NCBI RefSeq assembly: GCF_015354405.1
Contig: NZ_JADKYP010000012.1
Location: 82,597-146,596 of the forward strand
Origin: Nocardia sp. BSTN01
Lineage (GTDB): Bacteria > Actinomycetota > Actinomycetes > Mycobacteriales > Mycobacteriaceae
DNA length: 64,000 nucleotides
Direction of reading: 5' to 3'
Positions 24,484 through 55,419 of the stretch are shown here, one piece after another. The number at the start of each line of letters is the position of its first letter. Within the stretch, counting starts at the first letter, position 1. Both the position numbers and the translations under genes were made by a program. A model generated the notes under the pieces. That model ran no database searches, was not told the DNA's origin, and saw only the letters and a program-made list of their open reading frames with translations.

Positions 24484-26076
24484 GTGCTGGGCGTGACGTG
24501 GCGGGTGTGGGGGAGGATCGGGGCCGCTGTCGTCGCCGGGCTGCTGGTGTTCGCGAGTTTTCCGCCCCGTACCTGCTGGTATCTCGCGCCGATCGGCATC
24601 GCGATCCTGATCCTGGTCGTGCGCGACGCGCCGAGGTTGCGCGGCGGATTCGGTTACGGGCTGCTGGCGGGGCTCGCGTTCTTCCTGCCGCTACTGCCGT
24701 GGACCGGCATCTACGTCGGGCCGGGGCCGTGGCTGGCGCTCTCGGCCGCGTGCGCGGTGTATGTCGGCCTGTTCGGGCTGCTGTCGCGGCTGGTGTGCGA
24801 CCTGCCGGGCTGGCCGGTGTGGGTGGCGCTGATGTGGACGCTCACCGAATGGGGACGCTCCAGTTTTCCGTTCGGCGGATTCCCGTGGGGCCGGCTCGCT
24901 TTCGGGCAGGCCGACGGCTGGTATCTGCCGCTGGCCTGGCTCGGCGGCGCGCCGGTGGTGAGCTTCGCGGTCGCCCTGACCGGAACGGTTCTGGCCGCGC
25001 TACTGCTTCGGTTGCGTCCCCGGGCAAACGCACGGCGTGCGGTCGTAATTATCACTCTCGCAACGGTTGTGGCTATTATCCCGATTACCGGAGTGATCCT
25101 CCGGACCGCGCTGCCCGCCCCGGACGACGGAGACCGGTCGATCACGGTCGCCGCTATCCAGGGCAGCGTGCCGCGGCTGGGCCTGGACTTCAACGCCCAG
25201 CGCCGCGCCGTGCTGGACAATCACATTCGCCGTACCGAGGAACTGGCCCGCGCGGTCGCCGCGGGCACCGCGGCACAGCCGGATGTGGTGATCTGGCCGG
25301 AGAATTCCTCCGATATCGACCCGCTGCGCAATTCCGACGCCTACGACGAGATCACCGCCGCCTCCCGCGACATCCACGCCCCGATCCTGGTGGGCGCCGT
25401 CCTCGTCAACGACGACCGCACCACCACCAATTCGGTGATCGTGTGGGACGCCGACGGGCCGGGGGAGCGCCACGACAAGAAAATCATCCAGCCGTTCGGC
25501 GAATATCTGCCCTATCGCGGCTTCTTCCGCCACTTCTCCAGCTACGCCGACCGCGCCGGCTACTTCGTGCCCGGTCACGGCGACGGTGTCGTGCACGCCC
25601 GGTCGGCCGGCGGAGGCCCGATGGTCGCGATCGGCGTGGCAACCTGCTACGAGGTCGCCTTCGACCGGGCCTTCGAGGATTCGCTGCGCGCCGGTGCGCA
25701 ACTGCTGACCGTCCCTACCAACAACGCCACCTTCGGCGACAGCGATATGACCTATCAGCAGCTGGCCATGTCGCGAGTGCGAGCCGTCGAACACGGCCGG
25801 GCGCTGGTGGTCGCCGCGACGACCGGCGTCAGTGCCGTTGTCACCGCCGACGGTGCGGTGCGACAGCAGACCGCCAAATTCGTGCCCGATGCACTCGAGG
25901 CGACACTGCCGTTGCGCAGCGAAACGACACCCGCGACGGCGATGGGTCCCCTCCCGGAACGCATGTTGTGTATTCTTGCTGCGGCCGTTGTCCTGGTTGC
26001 GGCTATCCGGCGGCGAACGATGCGCTCGGCGCATCGGACCGATGAGGACGTCACCGGCGACCGGGCATTCGACTGA
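24484..26076 (+). CDS. lnt: Apolipoprotein N-acyltransferase Lnt
   Basis: The protein has 530 residues. Six or seven N-terminal membrane helices (to about 195) are followed by a nitrilase-type periplasmic domain with the catalytic triad Glu (VVIWPENSSDID), Lys (DKKIIQPFGEYLPY) and Cys (IGVATCYEVAFD), and a C-terminal membrane helix. It N-acylates the Cys of mature lipoproteins. In M. tuberculosis the protein is fused to the polyprenol-phosphate mannosyltransferase Ppm1; here no Ppm1 domain or gene follows. The next gene is the NRPS. GTG 24484. Confidence 0.95.
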   Translation: MLGVTWRVWGRIGAAVVAGLLVFASFPPRTCWYLAPIGIAILILVVRDAPRLRGGFGYGLLAGLAFFLPLLPWTGIYVGPGPWLALSAACAVYVGLFGLLSRLVCDLPGWPVWVALMWTLTEWGRSSFPFGGFPWGRLAFGQADGWYLPLAWLGGAPVVSFAVALTGTVLAALLLRLRPRANARRAVVIITLATVVAIIPITGVILRTALPAPDDGDRSITVAAIQGSVPRLGLDFNAQRRAVLDNHIRRTEELARAVAAGTAAQPDVVIWPENSSDIDPLRNSDAYDEITAASRDIHAPILVGAVLVNDDRTTTNSVIVWDADGPGERHDKKIIQPFGEYLPYRGFFRHFSSYADRAGYFVPGHGDGVVHARSAGGGPMVAIGVATCYEVAFDRAFEDSLRAGAQLLTVPTNNATFGDSDMTYQQLAMSRVRAVEHGRALVVAATTGVSAVVTADGAVRQQTAKFVPDALEATLPLRSETTPATAMGPLPERMLCILAAAVVLVAAIRRRTMRSAHRTDEDVTGDRAFD

Positions 26077-26446
26077 CGGCCACCGCAACTCTCCCGGACA
26101 ATCACACATCGCGGGTACCCACGAATCGATCTTTCTCACACTCCGTCGATTCCGGGCCGCCCATCCGCATTCGCCGACCGGTTGCACATCCGGATGCCGC
26201 GTGCTGTCGATCTCGTCCTTGACGGGCTATCAGAGCGGAACGGCTGCGATTTGCGGTGAAATAGCTATCTAATTGCTCCATCCGCCTGTGGCGTTCGCGG
26301 CCGAAGATCACGACATCGTTACCAGTCCGGCCGCAACGGGGCTCCGAATCATAGGGCGTGGATCACGTCCTCCCGTTGGCGCGCGCTTTTCCGCCCGCGG
26401 ATGGGGACCGGGGAGTTGCGTATACAGCGGCAGAACGGAGTGATTG
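26077..26446. other. Intergenic region upstream of the NRPS gene
   Basis: This 370-base stretch is less GC-rich than the flanking genes. It holds a weak inverted repeat (GAATCGA at 26123, TCGATTC at 26146) that may help end lnt transcription. I looked for the 19-bp IdeR/DtxR iron box with TTAGG..CCTAA halves and did not find one. The NRPS promoter must be here, but I cannot place its boxes. Confidence 0.5.
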
Positions 26447-29400
26447 ATGAGTTCATTGGCCACCGATCGTGTCGACCAATGTGCTTCCGGCGAATTCTCA
26501 GCACAACCCTTCGCTCTGTCACCGGCGCAAACCGCCCTGTGGTACGCGCAGCGGATTCGACCCGATGTGCCACTGACCATCGCACAGTACGTGGAAATTC
26601 ACGGTGATCTCGACGTGGGCCGGCTGCTCTACTCGATCGAGCGGTTCGGCACGGAATCCCAGGTGGGCCAGTTGCGCGTCGTGGAGATCGACGGCGTGCC
26701 GCAGCAGGTGGTGGATTCGGCGCATCGGCCCGGCTGGGCTCGGATAGATCTGCGCCAGGAACCCGATCCGCGCGCGGCGGCGCTGCGATGGATGAACGAG
26801 CACGCCAGCAGCCCGATCGAGATCGAACACGAGCCGCTGACCATCAACGTCGTCCTGCGCCTCGGCGACCAGGACTACATCTGGTACTGCCGTGCTCACC
26901 ACATCGTCATCGACGGCTACGGCGCCATGAACGCGCTGACCCGCACCGCCGAGATCTACACCGCGCTGGAGAATCACACCGAGCCCTCGGTCTCGCGGGC
27001 CACCCCGCTGGCGGAGATCTATGCGGGGGAGTCGCAGTACCGGGAGTCGAGCCGCTATCGGGCCGATCAGGAGTACTGGCGTGAGCAGCTGGTGGGGGTG
27101 GGCGCGCCGCTGACACTGTCGTCGTCGGGGATCGCCTCGTCCACCCCGGATCCCGGCCGGCGCATCGCGGCGGCCGTGCTCGACGCCGATACCGAGGCCG
27201 AACTCGCCACTGCCGCTGCCACATTCGACTCGCAGAACTCGGCACTGGTGGTCGCGGCGCTGGCGGGGTACGTGCGCGCGGCGACCGGCACCTCCGATGT
27301 GGTGCTGAGCCTGCCGATGTCCGCGCGGACCACGGTCGCGCTGCGCCGCTCGGCCGGCGTGGTGTCGAACGTGGTGCCGATCCGGGTGCGCTTCGACGCC
27401 GGCACCACGGTCGCCGACGTCGTCAAGGCGACCGAACTGCAGATCACCGGCGCCCTACGGCACCAGCGTTACCGCCACGACGACATCAGACGCGACTGCG
27501 GTTATTCGCGCGATGCCCGCGGCTTCTTCGGCCCGATGGTCAACATCATGCTCTTCCACAGCGAGCTGAACTTCGGCAGCTTCGTCGGCTCGCTGAACGT
27601 GCTGTCCACCGGCCCGGTCGAGGATCTGTCGATCAACCTCTACAACGGCGAGGGCGGGCGCATCCACGTCGATTTCGAGGCCAATCCTCAGCTCTACGGC
27701 GCGGCCGAGCTGACACGTCACCATGAGCGGTTCCTCGACTATCTGAACCGCTTCCTCACCGCCGATCCGGCCGAGCCGATCGCGGCGGTGCCGGTGATCA
27801 CCGACGCCGAACGCGACGAGGTGCTGCGGCAGTGGAACGCGACCGCCGTGCCGGAGCAGCCAGGGACCCTCGCCGATCGGTTCGGGGCGCAGGCACGGGC
27901 CACGCCGAATGCGATCGCGCTCGAATTCGACGGCGACACACTGACTTACGAACAGCTACGACAGCGCGCGGATCGGCTGGCGCGCATGCTGATCGCCCGC
28001 GGCGCCGGACCCGACACGGTCGTGGGCCTGGCCATGCGGCGCAGTCTCGACCTGGTGGTCGGGATGTACGCCATCGTGCGCGCGGGGGCGGCCTATCTGC
28101 CGATCGATCCCGATCATCCGGCCGAGCGCACCGCGCACATCCTCGACCAGGCCGCCCCGCTGTGCGTACTGACCGCGGCCCGGGACGAGGCCGACCTGCC
28201 CGGCGACGTCGCGGTGATCGATGTGCAGCAGCTCGGCACGGCCGATTCCGGCGCCGAACCGCCGATCACCGACGCCGACCGGCGCGCACCGCTGCGCCGC
28301 GACCACCTGGCGTACGTGATCTTCACCTCCGGCTCGACCGGTAAACCCAAGGGCGTCGGCATCACCCACGCCGCCATCGTGAACCGCCTGGCGTGGATGC
28401 AGCACCGCTATCCGCTCGACGACAGCGACACCGTCCTGCAGAAGACTCCCGCGACCTTCGACGTGTCGGTATGGGAGTTCTTCTGGCCGTTGCAGATCGG
28501 CGCGCGGCTGGTGATCGCGGCACCGGACGGCCACCGCGATCCGGCTTATCTCGCGCGGATCATCGCCGAAAAGGGCGTGACCACCGCCCATTTCGTGCCC
28601 TCGATGCTGTCGGTGTTCGTCACCGACACCGATGTGCGCGGCTGCGACGGACTGCGCCGGGTGTTCTGCAGCGGTGAGGCGCTGCCCGCGGCGACCGTGC
28701 GTGATTTCCACGCCGTCGTTCCCGGCGCGCGGCGGGCCGGATCCCCGGCATCGGCCGACGGCGCGCAGTTGCACAATCTGTACGGGCCCACCGAGGCGGC
28801 CGTCGACGTCACCTATTGGGCGTGCGCGCCGGAGAACGACGTCGTCCCGATCGGCGCGCCGGTCTGGAACACCCAGGTCTACGTCCTCGACGAGACGTTG
28901 CGACCGGTCGCGCCCGGTGTGATCGGCGAACTGTATCTGGCCGGCGTGCAGCTGGCCCGCGGTTACCTGGGCCGCCCCGCCCTGACCGCCGACCGCTTCG
29001 TCGCCAATCCGTTCACACCCGGCGAGCGCATGTATCGCACCGGCGACCTGGTGCGCTGGCGGATGGATCCGATCCCCCCGGCGACCGGCGCGGACCGGCT
29101 GCCCGCGGTCCTGGAATACCTGGGGCGCAGTGACTTCCAGGTCAAGATCCGCGGCCAGCGAATCGAACTCGGCGAGGTCGAGGCGGCACTGCTGGCCGAC
29201 GAGCGGATCGCCCGCGCGGTCTGCGTCGCCCACACCACGCCGGGCGGAGACGAGCTGGTCGGCTATGTGGTGGCCGCGCCGGGGCACACCGTCGACAGCG
29301 TCGCCATGATCGCCGACCTCCGTGGCGTACTGCCCGGGTACATGGTGCCCACCGTGATCGTCGTACTCGGCGAAATGCCGTTGAGCGCCAACGGAAAGAT

Positions 29401-32400
29401 CGACCGCAAGGCGCTGCCCGCACCGGAGGCGCCCGCGCGCCGCGGCGGCGACAGCATCGTCGAGCCGCGCACGGCCACCGAACGGCAGATCGCCGCCCTG
29501 TTCACCGAGGTCCTCGGCTGCGAGAGCCTGGGCGTCGAGGACAGCTTCTTCGACCTCGGTGGCAATTCGCTGTCCGCCGCACGGGCCGTGGCGCGGATCA
29601 ACGCCGCCTTCGGCTCCGGGCTGACCATCCGGGATCTGTTCGAATCGCCGACGGTCGCCCAGCTCGCCGAGCGGATCGGTGAGCACGGCGTCGACCGGTC
29701 CTCCCCGAAACTGGTGGCCGGCCCACGGCCGCAACGCATTCCGCTCTCGCTCGCGCAGCAGCGGCTGTGGATCCTCAATCGTTTCGCCGAACACGCCGGC
29801 GCCTACAACATGCCGCTGGCCGTCGAGCTGACCGGACCGCTCGAGGTCGAGGTGCTGCGCGCCGCACTGCTCGACGTGCTCGAACGGCACGAGAGCCTGC
29901 GCACCACCTTCCCCGATTCGCCGACCGGCCCGACCCAGGTGATCCACGAGCCCGCCGAGATCCCGCTGAACCTCGAGCCGATCGACGTCACCGGTGCCGA
30001 CGCGCTCGCGCTGGCCACCGAATACGCCGGATACGGCTTCGATCTGCGCAGTCAGGCGCCGATCCGGGTGGCGCTGTACGCCACCGGACCCGACGTACAC
30101 GTCTTCCTCATCGTCCTGCACCACATCTGCGGCGACGGCTGGTCGGTGGCGCCGCTGGCTCGCGATCTGATGGGTGCGGTCGCCGCGCGCACCACCGGAC
30201 AGGCCCCGCACTGGGCGCCGCTGCCGGTGCAGTACGCCGACTTCGCGCTGTGGCAGCGCGAACTGCTGGGCGACGAGACCGATCCCACCAGTGCGCTGGC
30301 GCGGCAGCTGGCCTACTGGCGCACCGCCCTGGCCGAACTGCCCGATCAGCTGGACCTTCCGCTGGATCGCCCGCGCCCGCGGCAGCGCGATACCGCCGGT
30401 GGCCGAGTCGAATTCACGATTCCGGCCGAAACCCGCCGCGCGGTCGCCGACGTGGCCGCCGAGCGCGGCGTCAGCACGTTCATGATCATGCACGCGGCGT
30501 TGGCGAGCCTGCTCTCGCGTCTGTGCAACACCACCGATATCGCCATCGGCACCCCGATCGCCGGGCGCTCCGATCCGGCGCTCGACGATCTGGTCGGCAT
30601 GTTCGTCAACACTCTGGTGCTGCGCACCGAGGTCGACCCGGCCACCGGATTCGACCGCATGCTCGATCGCGTCCGCGAAACCGACCTCGATGCCTTCGCC
30701 AATGCCGATGTGCCGTTCGAGCGGCTGGTCGAGGTCGTCAACCCGTCCCGCGACGCCGGCCGCCACCCGCTGTTCCAGGTGATGCTGTCCTACGAGAACT
30801 CGCCCGAACTGCGGGTCGACCTGCCCGGTCTCAGTGCCCGGGTGCTGCCGATGGACGTCGGTGTCGCGAAATTCGATCTCCAACTGATCGTCCACGACAG
30901 CGATGCCGCCGATGCCGAGGACGGCCCGCTGAGCGCCGAATTCGGTTACGCCGCCGACGTTTTCGACCATGCCACCGTGCAGGCCGTGGCCCGGCGTTTC
31001 GTCCGGCTGCTCGACGCCGCGGTCGTCGCGCCGGAGACCGCGGTCGGTGATCTGCCGATCCTCGACGCCCGCGAGATCGGCAATCTGGTGCCGATCGCCG
31101 GTGCGCCGGGCGTGCCGCCGCTGAGCCTGGCGCGGCTGCTGCACGAAACCGCGGAGCGGGTCCCGGATCTGGTCGCGGTCCGATACCGGGGCCGCGACAC
31201 CACCTACCGGGAGATCGACGAGGCCTCCAACCGGCTGGCCCGGGTGCTGATCGAACACGGCGCCGGACCCGAGGTGGTGGTCGCTATCGCCTTGCCGCGC
31301 AGCCTGGCCTCGATCACCGCGATCTGGGCGGTCGCCAAGACCGGCGCGGCCTATGTGCCGGTCGACCCCGGCTATCCCGCAGAACGCATCGAGCACATGC
31401 TCAGCGATTCCGGTGCGATGCTCGGCCTGACCGACGCCCCCAGCCACGCCGCCATGCCGGAACGGCCGATGCACCGTGGCCGGCACCGCAAACAGGGCGC
31501 CGACTGGCTGCTGCTGGATTCTCCCGTCCTCACCCATGCCCTGGCGCGGGTCTCGTCGGCGCCGGTCACCGATCGGGATCGGCTACTGCCGCTGCGCATT
31601 TCGCATCCGGCATATCTGATCTACACCTCCGGTTCGACCGGCAAACCCAAGGCTGTCGTGGTCACCCACGGCGGTATCGCCTCGCTGGCGCACGAGCAGA
31701 TGCATCTGTTCAAAGTCAACGATATGGCGCGCACGCTGCACTTCTCCTCGCCCTCCTTCGACGCCTCGGTACTCGAACTGCTACTGGGTTTCGCCGCGGG
31801 CGCAACGATCGTGGTCGCCCCGGCCGGACTCTACGGCGGCGCCGAACTCGCGCGGCTGCTGCGCGACGAGCGGATCACCCACGCGTTCATCACCCCGGCC
31901 GCGTTGGCGACCGTATCGCCGGACGGCCTCGATGATCTCGAGGCCGTGATCGTCGGCGGTGATGCGTGCCCGGAGGATCTGGTCCGCACCTGGACCGCCG
32001 GACATCGCATGCACAACATGTACGGGCCGTCCGAGGCGACCGTCGCCGCCACCGCCAGCGACCCGATGGTCGCGGGCCGCCCCGTCCCGATCGGCAAACC
32101 GGTGCGCGGGATGCGGCTGTTCATCCTGGACCACCGGCTGCATCCGGTGCCGCCCGGCGTCGCGGGGGAGTTGTACATCTCCGGCCCCGGCCTGGCCCGC
32201 GGCTACCTCGGCCGCCACGGGCTGACCTCGACCCGGTTCCCGGCGAATCCGCACGGGCGCCGCGGCGAACGCATGTATCGCACCGGTGATCTCGTGATGA
32301 CCGACGGGAACGGTGTGCTGCGCTTCTTGGGTCGCGCGGACGATCAGGTGAAGATTCGCGGTTTCCGCATCGAGCTGCGCGAAATCGACCATGTGCTGCG

Positions 32401-35400
32401 CGCGCACCCGGGTGTGCGATTCGCGATGACCGTCGTGCACACCGGTGAGCACGGGGCCGCCCGGCTGGCCGCGTACCTGGCCGCCGACGCCGGCGCCGAC
32501 GTCGACCCGGCCGAGGTGCGCGAGACCGCGCGCCGCCATCTGCCCGCCTATATGGTGCCCGCCGCGATCACGGTGCTGGACCGGGTACCGGTGACTCCGG
32601 CCGGCAAGGTCGACCGCAAGGCGCTGCCCGCGCCCGTCTTCACCTCCGCCGGGCCGACGCGGGCGCCGGAATCGGAGCTCGAGAAGCGGGTCGCGCAGGT
32701 CTTCGCGACGGTGCTCGGCCATGCCGTACCCGGCGCCGAGGACAGCTTCTTCGACGCCGGCGGCAACTCGCTGCTGGCGACGCGGCTCACCGCCGCGCTG
32801 CACGCCGAATTCGGTGTCGAACTGCCGGTCCGGGCCGTCTTCGAAACGCCCACCGTGGCCGGGGTCGCGGCCCACCTGGAAGACGCGCCGCGCACGAACC
32901 GGGTGGCGCTGACACAGTACGACCCGCGCCCCGCCCGGATTCCGCTGTCGTTGCCGCAGCAGCGCATGTGGTTCCTGAACCGCTACGCACCCGAATCCAG
33001 CGCCTACAACATCGCTTTCGCGTTGCGCATCGACGGCGACCCGGATCTGCCCGCACTGCGCGCCGCCTTGGCCGATCTGGTCGACCGGCACGAGGTGCTG
33101 CGCACGATCTTCCCCGAGGATCAGGCCGGCCCGTATCAGCTGGTTCTCGGCTCCGACCGCTGCCTGCCGGTGCTGGAACCCGTGGTGACCGACGAACGCG
33201 GCTCTCAGCTGGCGCTGCGCGGCCTGGCCCAGCGCGGATTCGACCTCACCCGCGAGATCCCGTTGCGAATGACGGTGCTGCGCACCGGAATCCGCACCTA
33301 CCAGCTGGGCATCGTGGTTCACCACATCGCCGCGGACGGCTGGTCGCTGGGACCGCTCACCACCGATCTGATGGTCGCCTACACCGCGCGCCGCGACGGC
33401 GCGGCCCCGGCGTGGGCGCCGCTGCCGGTGCAGTACGCCGATTTCAGCCTGTGGCAACGCGAATGCCTCGGTGACGTTTCCGATCCGGCCAGCGCCGCGG
33501 CCGTGCAGCTGGGGTTCTGGCGCGACACCCTCGCCGGCCTGCCGGAGGAACTGCCGCTGCCCTACGACCGGCCGCGTCCGGCCGAGCCGACCAACCGTGC
33601 GGGCACCGTCCGGATCCGGATGCCGGAAGAACTGCGCGAGCGGCTCGACGACCTGGCCCGCGCACAGGGTGTGAGCATGTTCATGGTGCTGCGCTCAGCG
33701 CTGGCGGTGGTGCTGCGCATCGTCACCGGCGGCCGCGACATCGTCATCGGCACGCCGGTGGCCGGGCGTGCCGACACCCGCCTCGACGACCTGGTCGGCA
33801 TGTTCGTCAACACCCTGATGCTGCGCTCGGACGTCGATCCCGACCAGACCTTCGCCGATCAGCTGCGCGCCGACCGCGACGGTGAACTCGCCGCCATGTC
33901 GCATGCGGAACTGCCGTTCGAGCGCATCGTCGAGGAACTCGGCCGCGACAACGGCGGAGTGCGGCCGCTGCTGCAGGTCGCGCTCATCGTGCAGGACACC
34001 ACACCACCGGCCCTCGAACTGCCCGGGCTGCGGTTGCGGGCCCAGGAACTCGACATCGCGGTGGCCAAGTTCGATCTGGAACTGCGGGTGCCCGCCGATG
34101 CCGGTGACCTCGAAATGGTCTATGCCGCAGAGCTTTTCGACGAGGACACGGTCTGCACGCTGGCCGAGCGGCTGCTGCTGGTGCTGGATTCGGTCAGCGC
34201 CGACGCCCACGTCCGGGTGCGCGACATCGATGCGCGTACCGACATCGAACGCACGCACTTCACCCCGCGCCGTGGCCCGGCCGCCACCCCGCAGTGCAGC
34301 CTGGCGAACTACTTCACCGCCACCGCGCACCTGCATCCGCACCGCACCGCGATCCGCAGCGGCGACCACGAGCTCAGCTACGCCGAGCTGGAGCGCTGCT
34401 CGAATCGGATCGCCCGCGCCCTGATCGCGCGCGGCGTCGGCAGCGGCGACCGGGTGGCCGTCGGGCTGACCCGGTCGATCGAATCGGTGGCCGCCGCCCT
34501 GGCCGTCACCAAAGCCGGTGCGGCGTTCGTCCCCGTCGATCCGAACTATCCGGCCGACCGCGTGCGGCACATGCTCACCGACTCCGGATGTGCGCTCGGC
34601 ATTTCCGTGACCGCCCACCAGGAGCGGCTGCGCCGCGCCATCGAGGGCAACGGCTCGGCGCCGGGCACCGAGTGGCTGCTGCTCGACGACGCGACGCTGC
34701 GCGCCGAGCTGGACGCGCACGACGAGCGCACGATCACCGACGCCGAACGGCGGCGCACGGTGTGGACGACCGACCTGGCCTACCTGATCTACACCTCCGG
34801 TTCGACCGGAAAGCCGAAGGGCGTGGCCGTCACGCATGCCGGGCTGTCCAATTTCGCCGACGAGATCCGTGAGCGGATGCGCATCGACCGCGACGCCCGC
34901 ACCCTGCATTTCGCGAGCCCGAGTTTCGATGCGGCCGTGCTGGATCTGCTGCTGGCGATCGGCGCCGGCGCCATCATGGTGATCTGCCCGCCCGACATCT
35001 ACGGCGGCGACGAGCTGGCCGCCCTGATGGATCGCGAATGCATCAGCCACACCTTCATGACCCCGGCCGCGCTGGCCACCATCGACCATCGGCGCTGGCC
35101 GCTGCCGCACCTGCGCGCGATCATGGTCGGCGGCGAGGCGGTCGGCACCGATCTGATCGCGCGCTGGGCGCCGGGCCGGATGCTGTTCAACGGATACGGC
35201 CCGACCGAGACGACCATCGTGGTCACGATTTCCGACCCGATCGCGGTCGGTGACCAGGTGACCATCGGCTCGCTGGTGCGCGGGGTGCACGCGGTGGTAC
35301 TCGACGAGCGGCTGCGGCCCGTCCCGATCGGCGTACCGGGCGAGTTGTATCTCGGCGGCCAGTCCGTCGCGCGCGGCTACTTCGACCGTCCCGATCTCAG

Positions 35401-38400
35401 CGCGGCGCGGTTCGTCGCCGACCCGTACGGGCCCGACGGCGCGCGCATGTACCGCACCGGCGATGTGGTGCGCTGGCGCGCCGACGGCGCGATCGTCTAC
35501 CTCGGCCGCAGCGACCACCAGGTGAAGCTGCGCGGTTTCCGCATCGAACTCGGTGAGATCACCGAGGTGCTGGCCGCGCACCCGGCGCTGCGGTTCGCCC
35601 ACACCGAGGTGCGCGAGATCGCCGGCACACCGCGGATCGTGTCCTACGTCCAGCCCGCCGAACCCGGCGCCGACATCGACGTCGAGGCGCTGCGGACCCA
35701 TGTGGCCGCGCACCTGCCGGCGCATATGGTGCCCGGCAGCGTCACCGTGCTGGACCGGATTCCGCTGACCCCGGTCGGCAAACTCGACCGCGACGCGCTG
35801 CCGGAACCGCAGCAGATCACCACCGCGGCGCGGGAACCGGGCACCGACACCGAACGCCTGGTCGCGCAGGTGATGGCCGAGTTGATCGGCGCAGAATCCG
35901 TCGGCGCGGACGACAATTTCTTCGAGATCGGCGGAAACTCGCTGCTGGCAACGCAATTGGTGGCCCGGCTGAGCGACGCGACCGGGGTGCGGGTGCAGGT
36001 GCGGTCGGTCTTCGGCGCCCCGACCGTGGCCGAACTCGCCGCCCTGCTCGACGGCGGCACGGGCGAGGGCGACCACGGCCCCGCCCTGACCCGGCGTGAG
36101 CGCCCGGCCCGGGTGCCGCTCTCGGCGGCGCAGCGGCGGCTGTGGTTCCTCAACCGGTTCAACGCCTCCTCGGCCGAGGATCTGTCCGGTGTCTACAACG
36201 TGCCGGTCGCCCTGCGGATGCGTGGTGCGCTGGACGTGGCGGCGTTGCGCGCGGCGCTGCACGCGGTGCAGCGGCGGCACGAAACGTTGCGCACGGTCTT
36301 CCCGGAAGTCGAGGGCGAGCCGTACCAGCGGGTGCTCGCACCCGGCGAGGCCGCGGTGGCACTGCCGGTCGTCGACGTCGACGAGGGCGAAATCGCCGGC
36401 ACCGTAAGGACTTTCGCGGCTGCCGGATTCGACCTCGCGTCGACCGCACCGCTGCGGGCGCAGCTGCTGCGCATCGCCGCCGACGATCACGTCCTGGTCC
36501 TTGTCGTCCACCACATCGCCATGGACGGCTGGTCGCTGGAACCGCTGGCCGCCGATATCGCGGGTGCGTACCGGTCGTATGCGGCCGGCTCGGCGCCGGA
36601 ATGGGACGAGCTGCCCGTCCAGTACGCCGATTACACGCTGTGGCTGCAGGACACGCTGGGCGCGGAGGACGATCCGGAATCGCCGATCAGCCGCCAGCTC
36701 GACTACTGGCACGAGGCGCTGGACGGTCTTCCCGAACTGTTGCCGCTGCCCACCGACCGGCGCCGCCCGGCGACGCCGAGCTACCGCGGCGGCACGGTGG
36801 ATTGCGTCCTCGACGCCGTCACCCACCGCGAACTGCAGGTCGTCGCCGCCCGCCACGGTGTCACGATGTTCATGGTCCTGCACGCCGCGCTGGCCTCGCT
36901 GCTGCACCGGATCAGCACCGAACACGACATCACCGTCGGCACGCCGATCGCCGGACGCGGACAGCAGGCCCTCGATCCGATGGTCGGCATGTTCGTCGGC
37001 ACCCTGGTGCTGCGCACGCCGGTGAGCGGCGCGCAGACCTTCGCCGATCTGCTCCGCGCCGTGCGCGACACCGACCTCGAGGCCTTCGCGCATGCGGACG
37101 TGCCGTTCGAGCGGCTGGTCGAGGTGCTCAATCCGGCGCGCTCGCAGGCGCATCACCCGATGTTCCAGGTGATGCTCTCGGTGCGGAATCAGCCGGTACG
37201 CAGCCTGGAACTGCCGGAGCTGACGATCGAGGCGTGCGACGCCGATCCGGGGATCGCGAAATTCGATCTGCAGTTCACCCTCACCGAATCGTGGACCGAA
37301 CAGCGGGAACCGGCCGGGATCACGGTCTCGGTGAATTTCGCCCGCGACCTGTTCGACGACACGACCGCCGCCCGCCTCGGCGCGCGTTTCGCCCGGTTGC
37401 TGCGGGCCGCGGCCACGAATCCCGAACTGCCGGTGGGTGATCTGGAACTGCTCGACCCCACCGAATGGACGACGCTGGCGCCGGTGCGGGGTGCGCTCGC
37501 CGGGCGGCCGGGAACGCTGCCCGAGGTCTTCGCCGCCGCGGTGGCCGTCGATCCGCGGGCGATCGCCCTGCGCACCGAAGACGCCGAGATCAGCTACGGT
37601 GCGCTCGACCGGTGGACCAACCGGCTGGCCCGGGTGCTGATCTCGCTCGGTGCCGGACCGGAAACGCTGGTGGCCCTGGGTATTCCGCGGTCGATGGAAT
37701 CGGTGGCGGTGACCCTGGCGGTGGCCAAGGCGGGTGCGGCGTTCGTGCCGGTCGACCCGAACTACCCCGAACACCGCATCGCCCACATGCTCACCGATTC
37801 CGGTGCCAGCCTGGGCATTACGCTCGCCGCCCACCGCGATCGGATGCCCGCGGGCGCCGAATGGGCGGTCCTGGACGCGCCGGCTCTGCAGGAGCGTGTG
37901 CTGCGCGCCTCCGATGCGCCGATCGCGCCACACGAGCGGCGGGGCCGGTTGCGCATCGAGAACCCGGCCTACGTCATCTACACCTCCGGCTCGACCGGCA
38001 CCCCGAAGGGTGTGGTGGTCACCCACGGCGGTCTGTCGAATTTCGCCGCCGAAACCGCCGAACGGTTCGACGTGCGACCCGACAGCCGGGTGCTGCACTT
38101 CGCCACCCCGAGCTTCGACGCCGCCATGCTGGATCTGCTGTTCGCGCTGGGCGGGGCGGCGACGCTGGTCATCGCGCCCACCGGGGTGTACGGCGGTCCG
38201 GATCTGGCGCGGTTGCTGGCCGAGGAGGACATCACCCACGCGTTCATCACCACCGCCGCGCTCGGCACGGTGGATCCGACCGGCCTCGACTCGTTCCGGC
38301 ACGTGCTCGTCGGCGGCGAGGCGCTGCCGCCGGAGCTGGTGGCGCGCTGGGCGCCCGGCCGGAACCTGCACAACGTGTACGGACCGACCGAGACGACCAT

Positions 38401-40096
38401 CGTCACCCTGATGGCCCCGCCGATCGCACCGGGTGCGCCGATCACCATCGGCGAACCGATCCGCGGCGTGCACGCGGTGGTGCTGGATTCGCGGCTGCAT
38501 CCGACCCCGGCCGGCGTGGTCGGCGAACTGTACCTGTCGGGTCCGGCGCTGGCGCGTGGGTACCACCACCGCACCGGGCTCAGCGCCCAGCGGTTCGTGG
38601 CCAACCCGTTCGGCAAACCGGGCGAACGCATGTACCGCACAGGCGACCTGGTGCGCTGGGTGCAGCGCGGCGGCCGCGCCGAGGTCGAATACGTGGGCCG
38701 CACCGACCACCAGGTCAAGATTCGCGGTTTCCGGATCGAACTCGGCGAGATCGACGCCGCGCTGCACCGCCACGACCAGGTCGAATGGGCCACCACGATC
38801 GGTCACCGCACCGCCGCGGGCGCCACCGCGCTGGTCTCGTATGTGAAAGCGCGCGCCGGCACGAATCCGACGGCGGCGCAGCTGCGCACCCATGTGGCCG
38901 GTCTGGTGCCGAGTTATATGGTGCCGCAATCGATCATGCTGCTGGAGTCGGTGCCGTTGAGCCCGGTCGGCAAGCTGGATCGCAAAGCGCTTCCCGAACC
39001 GGTCTTCGCCGCCGAACACGGCTACCGCGCGCCGTCGGGCCCGCTGGAGACGGCCGTCTGCGCCGCCTTCGCCGAGGTGCTGGGGGTCGAGAAGGTCGGC
39101 GCCGACGACGGGTTCTTCGATCTGGGCGGCAACTCGCTGCTCGCGACGAAGGTGGTGGCCCAGTTGCGTTCGGCCGGAATCGAGATGCCGGTGCAGCTGA
39201 TGTTCGCCGAGTCCACCCCGGCCGGTATCGCCCGGCAGCTGGCGGCCTCCGGTGAGGATGTGCTGGCGGTCGCGATGCAGCCGCTGTTGCCGATCCGGCC
39301 CGTGAGCGAGTCGATGGTGGAGCCGCTGTTCTGCGTGCATCCGGCGATCGGGCTGTCGTGGTGCTACGCGGGCCTGCTGGCGCATCTGCCCGGCGACCGC
39401 CCGGTCTACGGGCTGCAGGCCCCGCACATCACCGGTGCGCAGGAGCACGACTCCATCCGGGCGGCCGCGAAAGATTATGTCGCGCATATGCGTTCGGTGC
39501 AGCCGGAGGGGCCGTACCATCTGCTCGGCTGGTCGCTGGGTGGTCTGATCGCGCACGAGATCGCGGTCCAGCTGCAGGACGCGGGCCAGCAGGTGGCGCT
39601 GCTGGCGATGATGGACAGCTACCAGCTCGGCGATCGCTGGCTCGACCAGGCGATGCCGGGCGTGGCCGACATCATCGGCGAATTCGGCAGCGATCTGCTC
39701 GGTGGCGACCACGGCGTGGATCCGGGTCTGACCCTGGACGAGGCGGCCGAGCTGCTGCGCAACCGGCCCGGCCCGTTCGCGGCGCTGACGATGGACCATC
39801 TGCAGCGGCTCTACACCGGATACGCCAACGGCACGGTGCAGGCGAACGGATTCCGGCCGCGGGTCTTCGACGGTGATCTGCTGTTCTTCACCGCCGCCGA
39901 CGACGAGATCAACCTCGCCGACCCGCAACGCTGCGCCGCGGCGTGGGAGCCGTTCGTGACGGGTGTGATCTCCGACCGCAAACTGCGCTGCCGGCATTCC
40001 GGCATGACGACGCCGGAAGCGCTGGCCGTCATCGGCCCGGTGCTGCGGCAACAACTCGAGGCCGCCGCCGGCGGCGACACGGAGGAGACGCTGTGA
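26447..40096 (+). CDS. Four-module non-ribosomal peptide synthetase with EntF-like first module and terminal thioesterase
   Basis: The 4549-residue single-chain assembly line has domains (approximate residues) C1 22-463, A1 470-990, T1 1005-1078, C2 1098-1545, A2 1557-2065, T2 2075-2145, C3 2164-2597, A3 2619-3125, T3 3130-3200, C4 3221-3675, A4 3685-4190, T4 4195-4270 and TE 4285-4549. All four C domains keep HHxxxDG, all carriers keep GGNS, and TE has GWSLGG (Ser about 4363). There is no epimerisation, methylation or reductase domain. A starter acyl group must come in trans because the protein opens with a C domain. ATG 26447 has CGGAG 6 bases upstream; TTG 26444 is the alternative. It is coupled to the exporter genes by a 4-base overlap. 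Confidence 0.96.
26510..29680 (+). other. NRPS module 1: C(EntF-like)-A(Ser)-T
   Basis: C1 has [10 protein letters not shown] (about residue 150) and a layout like the EntF condensation domain, with [14 protein letters not shown] and [10 protein letters not shown] matching EntF's HQRYDAEQIVRDSG and FGPVLNIKVF. Manual pocket reading of A1 gives D-V-W-H-F-S-L-V-D-K from [22 protein letters not shown] and [11 protein letters not shown], the serine signature of EntF. The carrier has LGGNSL. Inference: an acyl or aryl group is joined to serine first. Confidence 0.85.
29735..32880 (+). other. NRPS module 2: C-A-T
   Basis: C2 has HHICGDGWS, of LCL type. A2 has the full core motifs ([25 protein letters not shown]). 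The pocket as read by eye is D-A-L-F-I-G-M-V-A-K (from [25 protein letters not shown] and [12 protein letters not shown]). A hydrophobic residue is likely, but I do not match it to a named amino acid. There is an unusual basic insert (HRGRHRKQG) before the A3 core. The carrier is AGGNSL. Confidence 0.8.
32935..36055 (+). other. NRPS module 3: C-A-T
   Basis: C3 has HHIAADGWS. The A3 pocket reads D-A-L-F-M-G-G-I-V-K ([37 protein letters not shown]). The carrier is IGGNSL. The A10 motif reads [11 protein letters not shown]; the catalytic Lys of GK is kept although the usual second Lys is Asp. Confidence 0.8.
36105..40093 (+). other. NRPS module 4 and thioesterase: C-A-T-TE
   Basis: C4 has HHIAMDGWS. 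The A4 pocket reads D-A-L-F-L-G-V-I-V-K ([36 protein letters not shown]), close to modules 2 and 3. The carrier is LGGNSL. TE (from about 39290) opens [20 protein letters not shown] like EntF, with Ser in GWSLGG, Asp in MMDSYQ and His in CRHSGMT. It either hydrolyses or cyclises the product; which one cannot be told. Confidence 0.8.
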
Positions 40097-41082
40097 GTTT
40101 GGCAGTGGAAGTCACCGATCTGGTCAAGACCTACGGTAAGGCCCGGGTGCTCGACGGCATCGATCTGGAGATCCCCTCGGGGACCGTGATGGGTCTGCTG
40201 GGTCCCAACGGCGCCGGGAAGACGACGACGGTCCGGATCGTCACCACCCTGTTGAAACCGACCTCCGGCAACGTCCGGGTCGCCGGGGTCGACGTGGTGC
40301 ATCATCCGGCGCAGGTGCGCACCCGGATCGGGCTGTCGGGGCAGTACGCCGCGGTCGACGAGAACCTGTCCGGATTCGAGAACCTGCGGATGGTGGCCCG
40401 GCTGTACGGCATGGACCACAAGAAGTCCGCCGAGCGCGCGACCGAACTGCTCTCGGCGCTGGGACTGGAACACGCGGCCGGCCGGCGTGCGGGCACCTAC
40501 TCCGGCGGTATGGCCCGCCGCCTGGACCTCGCCGGTGCGCTGGTGGCGCGGCCCACGGTGGTGGTACTCGACGAGCCGACCACCGGTCTGGACCCGCGCG
40601 GGCGACTCGATATGTGGAAGGTCATCGGCGATCTGGTCGACGACGGCACCACCGTGCTGCTGACCACCCAGTATCTGGAGGAGGCCGATCAGCTGGCCGA
40701 CCGGATCACCGTGATCGACAAGGGCAAGGTGATCGCCCGCGGCTCCGCCGACGAATTGAAGACTTCGATCGGCGGCGACCGGCTCACCGTCACCCTCGCC
40801 GAGGGACAGGACCCCGGCCCGGCGAAGTCCGTGCTGAGCGAGGTCGGGCTCGGGGAGCCGATCCACGAACCGGGCGCCGATCACGTCTCGATCGTGGTCG
40901 GCGACGGCACCCGCACCATGGTCGAGGCACTGCGCCGGCTCGACGACGCGGGGGTGTGCGTCGTGGACGCGGAGGTGACCCGGCCGAGTCTCGACGATGT
41001 GTTCCTGTCGCTGACCGGTACGCCCGCCGAGCCGATCGAAGAATCCGAAACCGAAGACGTAGCAGAGGAGATCATGTCGTGA
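40093..41082 (+). CDS. DrrA-like ABC transporter ATP-binding protein
   Basis: The protein has 329 residues from GTG 40093, which overlaps the NRPS stop as GTGA, with GGAGGAG just upstream. Walker A is [10 protein letters not shown], the signature is YSGGMARR (a G-for-Q variant of LSGGQ), and Walker B is [16 protein letters not shown]. The C-terminal extension of about 80 residues (DEVFLSLTG-type) is that of the daunorubicin-resistance DrrA group. With the next gene it probably exports the NRPS product or its precursor. Tight coupling makes joint function very likely. Confidence 0.95.
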
Positions 41083-41984
41083 GTACCGTCGAAGCGGCGG
41101 TCGCCGAATCGGAGACGGCGGCAGAGCCCACGCAGACAGACGCGGCGGTGACGCGGCCCGACATCGACAGTGACGTCCATACGATCGCGGCGCCGGTCCG
41201 GGTCTTCCGCGACAGCGCGATCATCGCCTACCGCAATCTGCTCACCATCCTGCGGGTGCCGACGCTGCTGGTGACCGCGACGGTCCAGCCGTTGATGTTC
41301 GTGTTCCTGTTCGCCTACATCTTCGGGGCGTCGCTGGGCGGCGGCCAGTACCGCGAATTCCTGCTGGCCGGCATCTTCACCCAGACGGTCGCCTTCAACG
41401 CCGCGTTCACCACCGTGGGCCTGGCCAACGACCTGCAGAAGGGCATCATCGACCGGATGCGCACGCTCCCGATGTCGCGGATGGCGGTGCTGATGGGGCG
41501 CACCCTGTCCGACACGGTGGTCAACGTGGTGGCGCTGGCCGTCATGGTGGCCTGCGGTTATCTGGTCGGATGGCGGATCAACGGCTCGGTGGCCGATGCG
41601 GCGCTGGGGTTCGCGATCATCCTGCTGTTCGCGTTCGCGATGTCGTGGGTGGGCGCGCTGACCGGGCTGATCGCGCCGAATGTCGAGGTCGCCCAGAGCG
41701 CCGGGCTGATCTGGCTGTTCCCGGTCACGTTCATCTCCTCGGCCTTCATCTCCGCCGAGACGCTGCCGGGCCCGCTGCGTTCGATCGCGGAATGGAATCC
41801 GATCACCGCGGTGTCGGCATCCGGCCGGAAACTGTTCGCCAACAGCTCACCGCCGACCTTCGCCGCCCCGCACGGCTGGCCGGTCGACCACTGCGTGGAG
41901 TACGCGGTGGCGTGTTCGGTGGCGATTCTGGCCGTGGCGGTGCCGCTGGCGTTGCTGCAGTACCGCAAGGTGGCCAGCCACTAG
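41079..41984 (+). CDS. DrrB-like ABC-2 type permease
   Basis: The protein has 301 residues from GTG 41079, overlapping the ATPase stop by 4 bases. A charged N-terminal tail of about 50 residues is followed by six membrane helices (LLVTATVQPLMFVFLFAYIFG, VVNVVALAVMVACGYLVG, FAIILLFAFAMSWVGALTGL, AGLIWLFPVTFISSAFI and others). The ABC-2 motif regions RMRTLPMSRMAVLMGRTLSD and a late WNPITAV are present. It forms the channel for the DrrA-like ATPase and is the last gene before a strong terminator. Confidence 0.95.
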   Translation: MSTVEAAVAESETAAEPTQTDAAVTRPDIDSDVHTIAAPVRVFRDSAIIAYRNLLTILRVPTLLVTATVQPLMFVFLFAYIFGASLGGGQYREFLLAGIFTQTVAFNAAFTTVGLANDLQKGIIDRMRTLPMSRMAVLMGRTLSDTVVNVVALAVMVACGYLVGWRINGSVADAALGFAIILLFAFAMSWVGALTGLIAPNVEVAQSAGLIWLFPVTFISSAFISAETLPGPLRSIAEWNPITAVSASGRKLFANSSPPTFAAPHGWPVDHCVEYAVACSVAILAVAVPLALLQYRKVASH

Positions 41985-41999
41985 ACAGTCCCGACAGCA

Positions 42000-42036
42000 G
42001 AAAGTCCCCCCGCACCTCGAGTGCGGGGGGACTTTC
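42000..42036. terminator. Strong bidirectional terminator after the NRPS operon
   Basis: This is a perfect 16-bp stem: GAAAGTCCCCCCGCAC, loop CTCGA, then the exact complement. AAA and TTT at the ends give a U-rich tail on both strands. It lies 15 bases after the permease stop and 13 bases after the convergent rbpA stop, so it serves both. Confidence 0.92.
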
Positions 42037-42049
42037 GCTGTTTCTCGAT

Positions 42050-42385
42050 CTACCGGCCGCGCCGGGTCTTGAGCAGGTCGAGGCGCTCCTGCAGCAGCTC
42101 CTCGAGCTCCTCCTTGGAGCGGCGTTCCAGCAGCATGTCCCAGTGGGTGCGCGGGGGCTTGACCTTCTTGGGTTCCTGGGTGGTGCCTTCGATCAGGATG
42201 CCCTCCTGACCGTTACGGCACAGCCAGGTCGGCGGGATTTCGGCGTCGTCGGCGAACGGGACGTCGAATTCCTCACCGTTGTCGGTCCGGTACCGCGCCA
42301 CTCGACGTGGTGCCAGGTCGTGGTCGCGGTCCGTCTCGTAGCTCACCGCTCCGAGCCGGCTACCTCGGAGTACGCGATCTGCCAT
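42050..42385 (-). CDS. rbpA: RNA polymerase-binding protein RbpA
   Basis: The 111-residue protein begins MADRVLRGSRLGAVSYETDRDHDLAPR, carries the core RTDNGEEFDVPFADDAEIPPTWLCRNGQEG and ends with the sigma-interaction helix HWDMLLERRSKEELEELLQERL. RbpA is an essential actinobacterial activator that stabilises open complexes with group 1/2 sigma factors. ATG 42385 matches the family start. A GGAAC-N18-GTT promoter lies upstream. In this copy only the first Cys of the zinc-type region (WLC) is seen. Confidence 0.97.
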   Translation of the reverse strand: MADRVLRGSRLGAVSYETDRDHDLAPRRVARYRTDNGEEFDVPFADDAEIPPTWLCRNGQEGILIEGTTQEPKKVKPPRTHWDMLLERRSKEELEELLQERLDLLKTRRGR

Positions 42386-42432
42386 GGTGTGCGGTCCTCT
42401 CTGGCCTGTCGGCAACGTTCTACTGGACTATC

Positions 42433-49363: not shown

Positions 49364-50557
49364 TCAGCCCTCCAGCAGGGTCTGGCCGAGATAGCCCTGC
49401 GCGTCGGTGATTCCCGGCGGAATCACGAACACCGCGGACCCGACGGGCGTGGTCCAGGTGTTCAGGGCGTCGAATTCGGCCAGGCGGCGCTGTACCGGCA
49501 GATACTGCGCCGCGATATCGCGCTGGTAGGCGGCGAACAACAACCCCGAATTCGAGGTGGTCCCCGGCGGCGGGGCATCGTCGTAGTTGTAGCCCCGCCG
49601 CAGGAAACGCTCGCCGTCGCTGGTGTGATGGGCCCGGGCGATATGCGCCGAGGGCGGAATGACCGGGATGCCGTGGGCGTCCACGGCCGCGAAATCCGGA
49701 TCGTCGGATTCGCGGGTGCCGGTCAGTGGCGCCCCGGTCGCGATGCGCCGGCCCACGGTCAGTTCCCGTCCCTCGGGGTCGAGTTCGTCCCAGGTGTCCA
49801 GATTCATCGCGATCCGGCGCAACACCATCGAGGTGCCGCCGCGCAGCCACGGCACGGTCGCGCCGTCGTCCCACACCAGCCGATCGAGATCGGCTCCGGG
49901 AGCGATGTTGACCGTGCCGTCGACCTGGCCCATCAGATTGCGCATCGTCTGCCCGGCAGCAGCGTTGCGAAATCCGCGCTGGGTCCACCGCACCGTCACC
50001 AGGGAGGTGACGCTGCGCGACAGTGCCCGCACCGCGTGCGCCACCGTCGTCGCCTCGTCCGCGCAGACCTGCAGCAGCAGATCCCCCTCACAGAATGCGG
50101 AGTCGAGCCGGTCGATGGTGAAGCCGGGCAGTTGCGCGAGCCACTGCGGCCGGGCGGATTCCAGCCCTGCCACCGTGAACAGCCGCGGGCCGAATCCGAC
50201 GGTCACGGTCAACCGGGCGGGCCGGCGAGCCAGCTCCGGTTCGGTATCGGCCAGCGTCGGTTCACCGGTCGCGAGCCGCGCCGCGTCCCCGGACCAGATG
50301 CGCAGCAACCCCACGAGGTCGGCCCGGCCGGTGCCGGGCCGCAGATCGAAGGCCACGAACGCCGCGTGCTGCTGCGGCGCGGTCGCGACCCCGCCCTGAT
50401 GCGGTCCGTAGAACGGTTCGCGCGCGGTGCCCGGGTCGGCGGTCTCGGTATGGCGCGTCCAGCGTTCGGCGCCGAGGGTGAGCCCCGCGACGCCCGCCGC
50501 ACCGGCCGCGGCCGCACTGCCGCCGAGTAGCCGCCGCCGTGAGAGCCGCTCAGCCAC
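49364..50557 (-). CDS. Tat-exported DyP-type haem peroxidase
   Basis: The protein has 397 residues from GTG 50557, which overlaps the copper-chaperone stop by 8 bases. A twin-arginine signal (LSRRRLLGGSAAAAGAAGVAGL) is followed by the DyP/EfeB fold. The GxxDG motif is in LMGQVDGTVN with the catalytic Asp, the probable proximal haem His is in ARAHHTSDGERFLRRGYNYD, and SGLLFAAYQRDI is family-typical. It oxidises dyes or organics with peroxide; EfeB relatives also act in haem-iron uptake. It forms an operon with PCu(A)C. Confidence 0.93.
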   Translation of the reverse strand: MAERLSRRRLLGGSAAAAGAAGVAGLTLGAERWTRHTETADPGTAREPFYGPHQGGVATAPQQHAAFVAFDLRPGTGRADLVGLLRIWSGDAARLATGEPTLADTEPELARRPARLTVTVGFGPRLFTVAGLESARPQWLAQLPGFTIDRLDSAFCEGDLLLQVCADEATTVAHAVRALSRSVTSLVTVRWTQRGFRNAAAGQTMRNLMGQVDGTVNIAPGADLDRLVWDDGATVPWLRGGTSMVLRRIAMNLDTWDELDPEGRELTVGRRIATGAPLTGTRESDDPDFAAVDAHGIPVIPPSAHIARAHHTSDGERFLRRGYNYDDAPPPGTTSNSGLLFAAYQRDIAAQYLPVQRRLAEFDALNTWTTPVGSAVFVIPPGITDAQGYLGQTLLEG

Positions 50558-51080
50558 CGTGGGCGGCCGGGGCAGGTGAGTAGTTCTCCTGATTGCCCGC
50601 GAAGTCACGCACCTGCGCGGTGAAGGTGGTGCTGGTGCCGTCGGCGAACTTCACCGTGACCGGTGTCTGCGCTCCCGTGCGCAGCGGCGCCTTCAGATCG
50701 ATGAACATCAGATGGTCGCCACCCGGCGTCAGTTTCGCGCTGCCGTGTGCGGGGATCGCCAGACCGCCGGCCTTGGGCCGCATCATGGAGGTGCCGTTGG
50801 ACTCGACCACCTCGTGGATCTCCATCCGGGCCGACGCCGGGCTGGTCGCGTCGACGACGCGGATCTCGTGGTCGCTGTTGTTGGTGAAATTCGCGAACGC
50901 CGCCGACATCCCCGCATCGGCGGCCTTGATCCATTGATCGCTCACGCCGACCGAATTGGCGTCCGCGGCAGTGGACGTGCCGCCGGACGAACATCCGGCC
51001 AGCAGCAGCGGGATCGAGGCCGTGGCGGTGATCAGCAGGGCCGCCGACCGGTGCCGGCGCACGTGGGGGAGAGAGAACAT
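50550..51080 (-). CDS. Periplasmic copper chaperone PCu(A)C-family lipoprotein
   Basis: The protein has 176 residues from ATG 51080. A lipoprotein signal (ALLITATASIPLLLAGC) has the lipobox LLAGC. The DUF461 domain has the copper ligands: His in MEIHEVV, Met in TSMMRPKAGGLAIPA, then His and Met in GGDHLMFIDL. PCu(A)C proteins carry Cu(I) outside the cell membrane to oxidase or other copper sites. It is cotranscribed with the DyP peroxidase. A C-terminal His (PAAHGG) is extra. Confidence 0.92.
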   Translation of the reverse strand: MFSLPHVRRHRSAALLITATASIPLLLAGCSSGGTSTAADANSVGVSDQWIKAADAGMSAAFANFTNNSDHEIRVVDATSPASARMEIHEVVESNGTSMMRPKAGGLAIPAHGSAKLTPGGDHLMFIDLKAPLRTGAQTPVTVKFADGTSTTFTAQVRDFAGNQENYSPAPAAHGG

Positions 51081-51467
51081 AGGTGAACTCCGTTGCATGA
51101 GAAAAGGTTTCATCGGTAGAGAGCAGGTGGGTAGCGGACACACGCACCGCGACCGGGTGACCGCCCGCATCCGGACGCGTGCAGTTCTTCCGGCATCCGA
51201 TCGACCCAGCCCGTGAACCCGCGGGCGGATGAGGGGATATGACCGGAACAGCACGGCGCGCGATCAGCGACCGGCGGCCACGCAGTACCCGTCAGTGGAC
51301 AATGCGGGCGTGCCGACGACGACCCGACGGGCGCACCGAGGAATCGAGCAACCGCTTCCACATCGCGTGGGCGGCCGTCTGCGTGCCACACAACTCAGCT
51401 GTTGCCCGTCATCCGTGGCACAGGCCGAACCGGCGAGGCCGTGGACGGGTTCACCGATATGCCGGTA
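51081..51467. other. Intergenic region, no gene seen
   Basis: These 387 bases lie between two minus-strand genes. Frames here are antisense or out-of-frame noise of the next gene. They should contain the PCu(A)C promoter. I see no clear metal-regulator box or hairpin. Confidence 0.45.
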
Positions 51468-52025: not shown

Positions 52026-52128
52026 CCGATCATGGTATCGGTGCCGGCCGGTGCGCTCGGCCGCCAGGTCCAGCGGTACACGCCCAGCGTGATGCCCGTC
52101 ACCACTCGCGCTTTCGGCCCGTCCGGGG

Positions 52129-52638: not shown

Positions 52639-52739
52639 GCAATCCACCCTAACCGCGAGCCGCGCGCCGGGCATCCGGACAGCGATCATGACTCGCGAGG
52701 TAATCGTCACGCCGACCGCACCCGCATACGATCGGGCAG

Positions 52740-55295: not shown

Positions 55296-55419
55296 GTCCA
55301 CTCCTCGAATCAGCGAGCGGGACCGGCCCTGCGTCGATCCCGAAGCCCGAATTGCTGTGCCTACGAAGTCGTTTCACCGAAGCTCGGCAGTATCGAGGGC
55401 CCGCAGGCCGGCCCGCCCC

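Follow-up and report, generated by a model that had tools for sequence, protein, structure and literature searches.

A four-module nonribosomal peptide synthetase widespread in Nocardia is probably a lipotetrapeptide synthetase

In this study, we analyzed a 64,000-nucleotide stretch of the genome of Nocardia sp. BSTN01 (contig NZ_JADKYP010000012.1, positions 82,597 to 146,596; hereafter the window) and the nonribosomal peptide synthetase (NRPS) gene that it carries. We found that the gene encodes a real and conserved four-module NRPS, with condensation (C), adenylation (A) and carrier (T) domains repeated four times and followed by a thioesterase (TE). It is probable (about 0.6) that it is a genus-core lipotetrapeptide synthetase, which makes an acylated serine followed by three aliphatic residues. 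The gene is not a new assembly line, and its family is already in print as common to Nocardia. What is new here is the range of the family outside Nocardia, the genomic site it shares, the likely housekeeping nature of its neighboring "N-acyltransferase", the assignment of a starter-type C domain, and the conservation of the adenylation pockets.

Domain architecture of the NRPS

The gene is a single open reading frame (ORF) running from an ATG at 26447 to a TGA at 40096 and coding for 4,549 amino acids (aa); the ORF program puts the start one codon earlier, at a TTG (26444). The Pfam search gave four Condensation, four AMP-binding, four AMP-binding_C, four PP-binding and one Thioesterase matches and no other family, and thus no epimerization (E) or methylation domain was found in the protein. 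The E values of the C and A domains were 0, so chance matching is no issue. In addition, the motifs that we sought were all intact and in order: HHxxxDG at residues 151, 1225, 2292 and 3355, TSGSTG.PK at residues 627, 1727, 2783 and 3846, the GGNSL serines at residues 1041, 2108, 3165 and 4230, and the thioesterase motif GWSLG at residue 4361. A dual C/E motif had 0 matches in the protein. The translation, the Pfam matches and the motifs thus bear out the C-A-T x4-TE order read in one 4549-aa chain by the initial annotation, which had been made from the sequence alone.

Distribution and conservation

When C1 was used as a query, 147 of the 149 sampled genomes of the genus had a match, which was the top match with 59-97% identity (100% in the own genome). 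The two genomes without a match are fragmented drafts (G015, 78% complete with 910 contigs; G055, 1,340 contigs). The NRPS frame was longer than 4,400 aa (4,452-4,735) in 132 of the 147 genomes and shorter in the other 15. One single-contig genome had an NRPS frame of only 3,861 aa (G072:C1:5482747-5484117), through either module loss or a broken frame.

In a scan of the contigs of named genomes, the best 80 of 477 relatives were retained. Among these 80, we took 68 Nocardia loci and the loci of Antrihabitans cavernicola, Rhodococcoides trifolii, a Skermania and Rhodococcus sp. Leaf247 as orthologous, and 8 Rhodococcus-named loci (~44% identity, without lnt) as non-orthologous. The apolipoprotein N-acyltransferase gene lnt lies upstream in 69 of the 80 best loci, that is 69 of the 72 orthologues, and within 1.2 kb in 68. 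The two genes of a DrrA-DrrB transporter follow the NRPS in all 20 fetched Nocardia loci. In the same 20 loci, rbpA is downstream in 19 (no match in the fetched stretch of L091), and a full-length lnt is upstream in 17, the other three (L081, L082 and L084) having only pieces of the lnt 3' end. The order lnt, NRPS, drrA, drrB, rbpA is also found in Antrihabitans (L067) and Skermania (L068). Five loci of the genus g6 (L069-L073) have lnt, NRPS and rbpA, and L078 has drrAB beside the NRPS. Thus, the four-module gene between lnt and rbpA also occurs in Skermania, Antrihabitans and some Rhodococcus-type genomes.

A C-domain tree was built with six four-module proteins and three of eight giant NRPSs described below. 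The C2 domains of the six proteins group together (87), as do their C4 domains (98, starred), and the C3 domains fall into two sets, the g6 pair and the remaining four. The C1 domains of Nocardia, Antrihabitans and Skermania group together (96, starred), and the g6 C1 pair falls outside a fork (88) that unites them with C1 of other NRPSs. This topology mostly fits one old gene with a fixed module order, and C1 may have a separate history in g6.

The first condensation domain

In a phmmer search against solved chains, C1 scored 209 bits with RzmA-Cs, 183 with CDA C1, 171 with ObiF1 and 153 with EntF. The next matches were Txo1 (85), 1l5a (84.5) and Txo2 (82); the remaining 16 of the 26 distinct sequences listed did not exceed 61.1. 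The chains 7c1k/h/p were assigned to RzmA-Cs, as the residues in which they differ (R148A, H140V) fit mutants described for that domain (PMC7804268). In the C-domain tree, C1 falls within a superclade of starter domains (17 rows, SH-aLRT 100), separate from 41 other C-type rows that include C2-C4. C1 therefore groups with known starter C domains and not with elongation C domains, and by this kinship it is a starter-type C domain. The initial annotation had called it EntF-type. A starter-type domain on a serine module stands, but three other starters outscore EntF, and the name fits solely in that broad sense. Like RzmA-Cs and CDA PS1 C1, the window domain is N-terminal, has HHxxxDG and lies in the same superclade, and these two gave its top scores among solved chains; however, they are distant relatives.

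The residue at one site is linked to acyl length in RzmA and HolA: Arg goes with C2, Met (CDA) with C6 and Ala with C8, according to the same study (PMC7804268). The site, R148 of RzmA, is Ala in the window C1 (Ala160), in contrast to the Arg or Met of these relatives, and is Phe in EntF. Furthermore, 67 of the 68 named Nocardia loci have Ala there, L134 having Ser, and so do all 12 non-Nocardia rows, which come from 9 genomes. By extrapolation from the distant relatives, Ala favors an acyl chain of medium or long length. According to a published study (PMC5550956), a starter C domain stands at the front of most Rhodococcus NRPSs, and so this type is common in these genera.

Adenylation pockets

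The pocket of A1 reads D-V-W-H-F-S-L-V-D (+K), as stated in the initial annotation, and corresponds to the serine code. The pockets of the other modules (DALFIGMVA in A2, DALFMGGIV in A3, DALFLGVIV in A4) are all hydrophobic and come nearest to leucine codes. A2 and A4 are likely aliphatic, and we predict Leu-like residues at positions 2 and 4 and a lineage-variable residue at position 3.

For the pocket counts, the 68 named Nocardia loci are the 80 best loci minus the 8 Rhodococcus-named and 4 other non-Nocardia ones, and incomplete pockets were excluded. The serine pocket was found in 66 of 66 loci with a complete A1 pocket, DALFIGMVA in 56 of 62 for A2, and DALFLGVIV in 18 of 21 for A4. In the non-Nocardia orthologous loci, A1 is serine throughout and A2 varies (DALFIGAVA, DALFGGLVV, DVMVAGVVV and DAFFAGAVA). 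The reading of a starter-type C domain with a serine module, three more modules behind it and a final TE is therefore supported: C1 stands apart from the elongation domains and A1 is predicted to load serine, so neither of these two refuting conditions named in the initial annotation holds.

Thioesterase and release

The nearest solved chain to the TE is 7crn (170 bits), which we take to be Skyxy-TE, rather than EntF (78 bits), and the proposed EntF-like character of this domain was not supported. Skyxy-TE both epimerizes and macrolactonizes (PMC11735501). The kinship suggests lactonization without proving it, and the sequence is compatible with a lactone or an acid. In addition, the serine is expected to stay in the L form because the protein has no E domain.

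Proposed product and alternative explanations

We propose that C1 would transfer a medium or long acyl chain onto L-Ser loaded by module 1. Acyl-CoA is a possible donor, as the window ORFs scanned (at least 87 aa) included no acyl ligase and a genome-wide carrier search gave no carrier domain in the window besides the four of the NRPS. Three aliphatic L-residues would follow from modules 2-4, those at positions 2 and 4 Leu-like and the one at position 3 differing between lineages. The TE would free acyl-Ser-X-X-X either by closing a lactone on the Ser hydroxyl, with a ring of 13 members for a monomer, or by hydrolysis to the acid, and the DrrA-DrrB ABC-2 transporter would export the peptide, probably to the envelope.

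Several points weigh against this proposal. The phylogeny of C1 called for in the initial annotation placed it in the starter superclade together with EntF, but left EntF, RzmA and CDA unresolved at the base, with EntF on a long branch. Homology of C1 does not separate acyl from aryl donors because ObiF1, which we take to accept 2,3-dihydroxybenzoate (2,3-DHB), an aryl group, scores between CDA and EntF. The Leu assignment of the pockets is a prediction from pocket codes. There is an aryl-ligase-like gene elsewhere in the genome (described below), no drrAB match lies beside the NRPS in five of five fetched g6 loci, so that export by drrAB is not universal, and no product has been seen so far. 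In addition, Männle et al. 2020 left the residues after serine unpredicted and allowed aromatic ones (PMC7413640).

If C1 were served, like EntF, by a carrier in trans loaded with 2,3-DHB or salicylate, the product would be an aryl-capped, siderophore-like Ser-X-X-X peptide that binds iron. The serine pocket and the shared superclade with EntF agree with this, and the first module strongly matches the NCBIfam models for EntF (1988.4 bits) and MxcG (1888.5), but it stays below both equivalog cut-offs (2400 and 2300). The genome search for the 2,3-DHB-AMP ligase model (TIGR02275), the ligase being the only such component sought, gave no match over the cut-off; the best gene (on C181), perhaps that of nocobactin, reached 647.1 of 723.55 bits. 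Moreover, C1 matches acyl starters better, pockets 2-4 are hydrophobic, no aryl carrier lies in the window, and neither an aryl ligase nor a siderophore importer was found among the ORFs scanned. The window also had 0 matches to the iron-box consensus. EntF-like initiation, as first suggested, is thus not supported, and we regard an aryl cap as quite improbable.

The TE could also join two or three acyl-Ser-X-X-X chains through their Ser hydroxyls, giving a quinomycin-type dimer or an enterobactin-type trimer. Serine comes first, and the closest solved relative of the TE is presumably the macrolactonizing Skyxy-TE. Furthermore, the bisintercalator NRPSs follow the same acyl-Ser-X-X-X logic and their TE dimerizes tetrapeptides. 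However, an E domain supplies D-Ser or D-Cys in those lines, and for dimerization the thiocoraline TE depends on the D form at this position (PMC4052310), whereas L-Ser is expected here. With a release mode that the sequence does not decide and only 28% identity to the EntF TE, such an oligomer seems unlikely. It is very improbable that C1 is no lipid starter and instead receives, in trans, an aminoacyl or peptidyl chain handed over by another NRPS or a free-standing carrier. The missing acyl ligase and free carrier would agree with it, and partners exist, as the genome has 93 C-domain matches; however, C1 groups with N-terminal starter domains, away from C2-C4, and no second NRPS was found among the window ORFs scanned. 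The acyl-capped tetrapeptide is thus the reading that we prefer.

Relation to known systems

Gene cluster family (GCF) 4 was described by Männle et al. 2020 as one four-module NRPS present in all Nocardia species of their set, with an N-terminal Ser and three unpredicted residues, a product unknown, and an N-acyltransferase gene and two transporters as neighbors (PMC7413640). The window NRPS agrees with it in having a single gene with four modules, in Ser as the first residue followed by three aliphatic or aromatic ones that are not predictable, and in genus-wide presence (147/149 genomes). Beside the window NRPS are lnt, a DrrA-type ATPase and an ABC-2 permease. We saw no difference from GCF 4; the comparison, including that of the neighbors, was by description. 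The section on GCF 4 gives no analysis of a starter C domain, of the TE, of synteny or of relatives outside Nocardia. Komaki et al. 2014 also list, as line #25, a four-module NRPS that each of their seven strains has and whose product was not predicted (PMC4035055); the window NRPS is probably this line. The family is not mentioned in the parts examined of a 2025 survey of 263 Nocardia genomes (PMC12153302).

In quinomycin, echinomycin and thiocoraline, the acyl-Ser(or Cys)-X-X-X plan, four modules, terminal TE and actinomycete origin are the same (PMC4052310). However, those lines use a pair of proteins, start from aromatic chromophores, and carry methylation domains as well as an E domain in module 1, whereas the window NRPS has neither E nor methylation domains. 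The view that no actinomycete line of this layout had been described therefore has to be given up. The likeness to E. coli EntF lies in a C-A-T module with a serine A domain (48% identity for A1), but EntF has one module rather than four, the identities of its C and TE domains are each 28%, and the window has no aryl carrier.

No product of a four-module Nocardia NRPS was found in the limited open-access literature searched, and no homologue with a known product in the searches made. The two plasmid searches (355 and 440 records) gave identities below 60% throughout and no product name among the best 20 of each.

The site between lnt and rbpA

Among the matches listed for the two genes, with secondary lnt paralogues left out, 118 genomes of the family have lnt and rbpA; both are on one contig in 109, on opposite strands in all 109. 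The gap between them is shorter than 7 kb in 66 and longer than 13 kb in 43 of these. Among the same matches, the long gaps are found in Nocardia (13/13, 15.8-16.4 kb), g6 (12/12, 13.8-14.0 or 30.9-31.9 kb), g10 (13/13, 33-49 kb), g23 (3/11), g16 (1/4) and g26 (1/1). In the window, the gap is 26077-42049. We looked into eight of the gaps that measure about 31 kb or more. A single NRPS frame of 8,905-9,887 aa lies in each of seven, and that of G183 holds NRPS frames in several pieces. The gap is thus an insertion hot spot for NRPSs, of ~4,500 aa or 8,900-9,900 aa in several genera, and is short elsewhere.

We considered whether the giants are module-expanded orthologues. The site TE is the best TE match of the genome in 7 of 7 g6 and 6 of 6 g10 giant genomes searched, but in 0 of 3 g23 genomes. 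Moreover, these site matches score 171-217 bits, hardly if at all above the 206 bits of the next TE in the window genome itself. In the trees, C1 of three giants and the TE of eight did not group specifically with the four-module enzymes, and the idea was rejected. What is shared seems to be the site and not the gene.

The gap of g27 measures 5.5 kb. In a short gap (G167), a ppm1-like glycosyltransferase family 2 (GT2) gene lies between lnt and rbpA. A relative of it (78-81%) adjoins lnt in G223, G170 and G301. In G000, G115, G089, G173, G246, G153 and G290, no close relative was found, only one of 48-52% elsewhere.

Lnt as a peptide-tailoring enzyme was rejected on circumstantial grounds: in 66 of 109 genomes, among the matches listed, lnt and rbpA are less than 7 kb apart, with no room for such an NRPS. 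It is further disfavored by an intact lnt ~12 kb from the NRPS in G037 and G133 and on another contig in G103. The "N-acyltransferase" of Männle et al. 2020 is thus probably the housekeeping lnt. The ~12 kb stretches are at G037:C9:117447-131172 (L081) and G133:C1:3747964-3762217 (L084); in these two genomes and G103 (L082), a 55-81 aa copy of the lnt 3' end lies beside the NRPS, which looks like the trace of an element that duplicated its target end.

A broader picture, tentative and rather doubtful, is that the product is an ancient core lipopeptide passed on mainly by vertical descent, an acyl-Ser-aliphatic3 lactone of the Nocardia envelope with its own ABC-2 export, and that the gap is a conserved slot for functionally equivalent, mutually replacing envelope lipopeptides. 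If it is true, the different NRPSs of ~8,900-9,900 aa in the gap of other genera of the family would be functional equivalents. A dispensable antibiotic is unlikely as the product because of the presence in 147 of 149 genomes, the one position in the loci examined, the invariant pocket 1 and the nearly invariant pockets 2 and 4.

Features of the window

Table 1. Coordinates of the NRPS, its domains and the adjoining genes in the window
Feature	Position	Strand	Evidence
NRPS gene, four modules and TE, 4,549 aa	26447..40096	+	Translation, Pfam
C1, starter-type condensation domain	26498..27853	+	Pfam; phmmer to RzmA-Cs, CDA C1, ObiF1, EntF; tree
Ala160 codon, aligned with RzmA-Cs R148 (acyl-length site)	26924..26926	+	Alignment
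A1, serine pocket DVWHFSLVD(K); approximate bounds	27881..29422	+	Pocket, profile matches
T1 carrier domain (FFDLGGNSL)	29486..29677	+	Genome-wide carrier search (C24:112082-112273)
C2	29735..31075	+	C-domain search (C24:112331-113671); tree
A2, pocket DALFIGMVA(K), likely aliphatic; approximate bounds	31118..32632	+	Pocket
T2 carrier domain	32687..32878	+	Carrier search (C24:115283-115474)
C3	32939..34252	+	C-domain search (C24:115535-116848); tree
A3, pocket DALFMGGIV(K), variable across genus; approximate bounds	34277..35806	+	Pocket
T3 carrier domain	35858..36049	+	Carrier search (C24:118454-118645)
C4	36113..37468	+	C-domain search (C24:118709-120064); tree
A4, pocket DALFLGVIV(K), likely aliphatic; approximate bounds	37484..39001	+	Pocket
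T4 carrier domain	39053..39238	+	Carrier search (C24:121649-121834)
Type I thioesterase (GWSLG)	39323..40009	+	Pfam; nearest solved chains 7crn/7dxo, EntF next
DrrA-type ABC ATPase, start overlaps NRPS stop (GTGA)	40093..41082	+	Pfam ABC_tran, DrrA1-3_C; sequence
ABC-2 type permease (drrB), start overlaps drrA stop (GTGA)	41079..41984	+	Pfam ABC2_membrane; sequence
lnt, apolipoprotein N-acyltransferase, probably housekeeping	24484..26076	+	Pfam LNT_N, CN_hydrolase
rbpA, RNA polymerase-binding protein, other flank	42050..42415	-	Pfam RbpA

Upstream of lnt are genes for an amidohydrolase, FxsA and a response regulator. The MbtH genes found genome-wide are on C155, C140, C139 and C125, with none on the NRPS contig. 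Farther upstream, the window holds cobalamin genes (CbiJ/CobK, CbiC, a tetrapyrrole methylase and a CobN-type chelatase; 2957-12157). Downstream (49364-63673), there are a Dyp peroxidase adjoining a PCu(A)C copper chaperone, a WS/DGAT and a UvrA-like protein. The whole genome (G000), with its 93 Condensation-domain matches and frames of 10,741, 8,230 and 6,605 aa on other contigs, is very rich in NRPSs.

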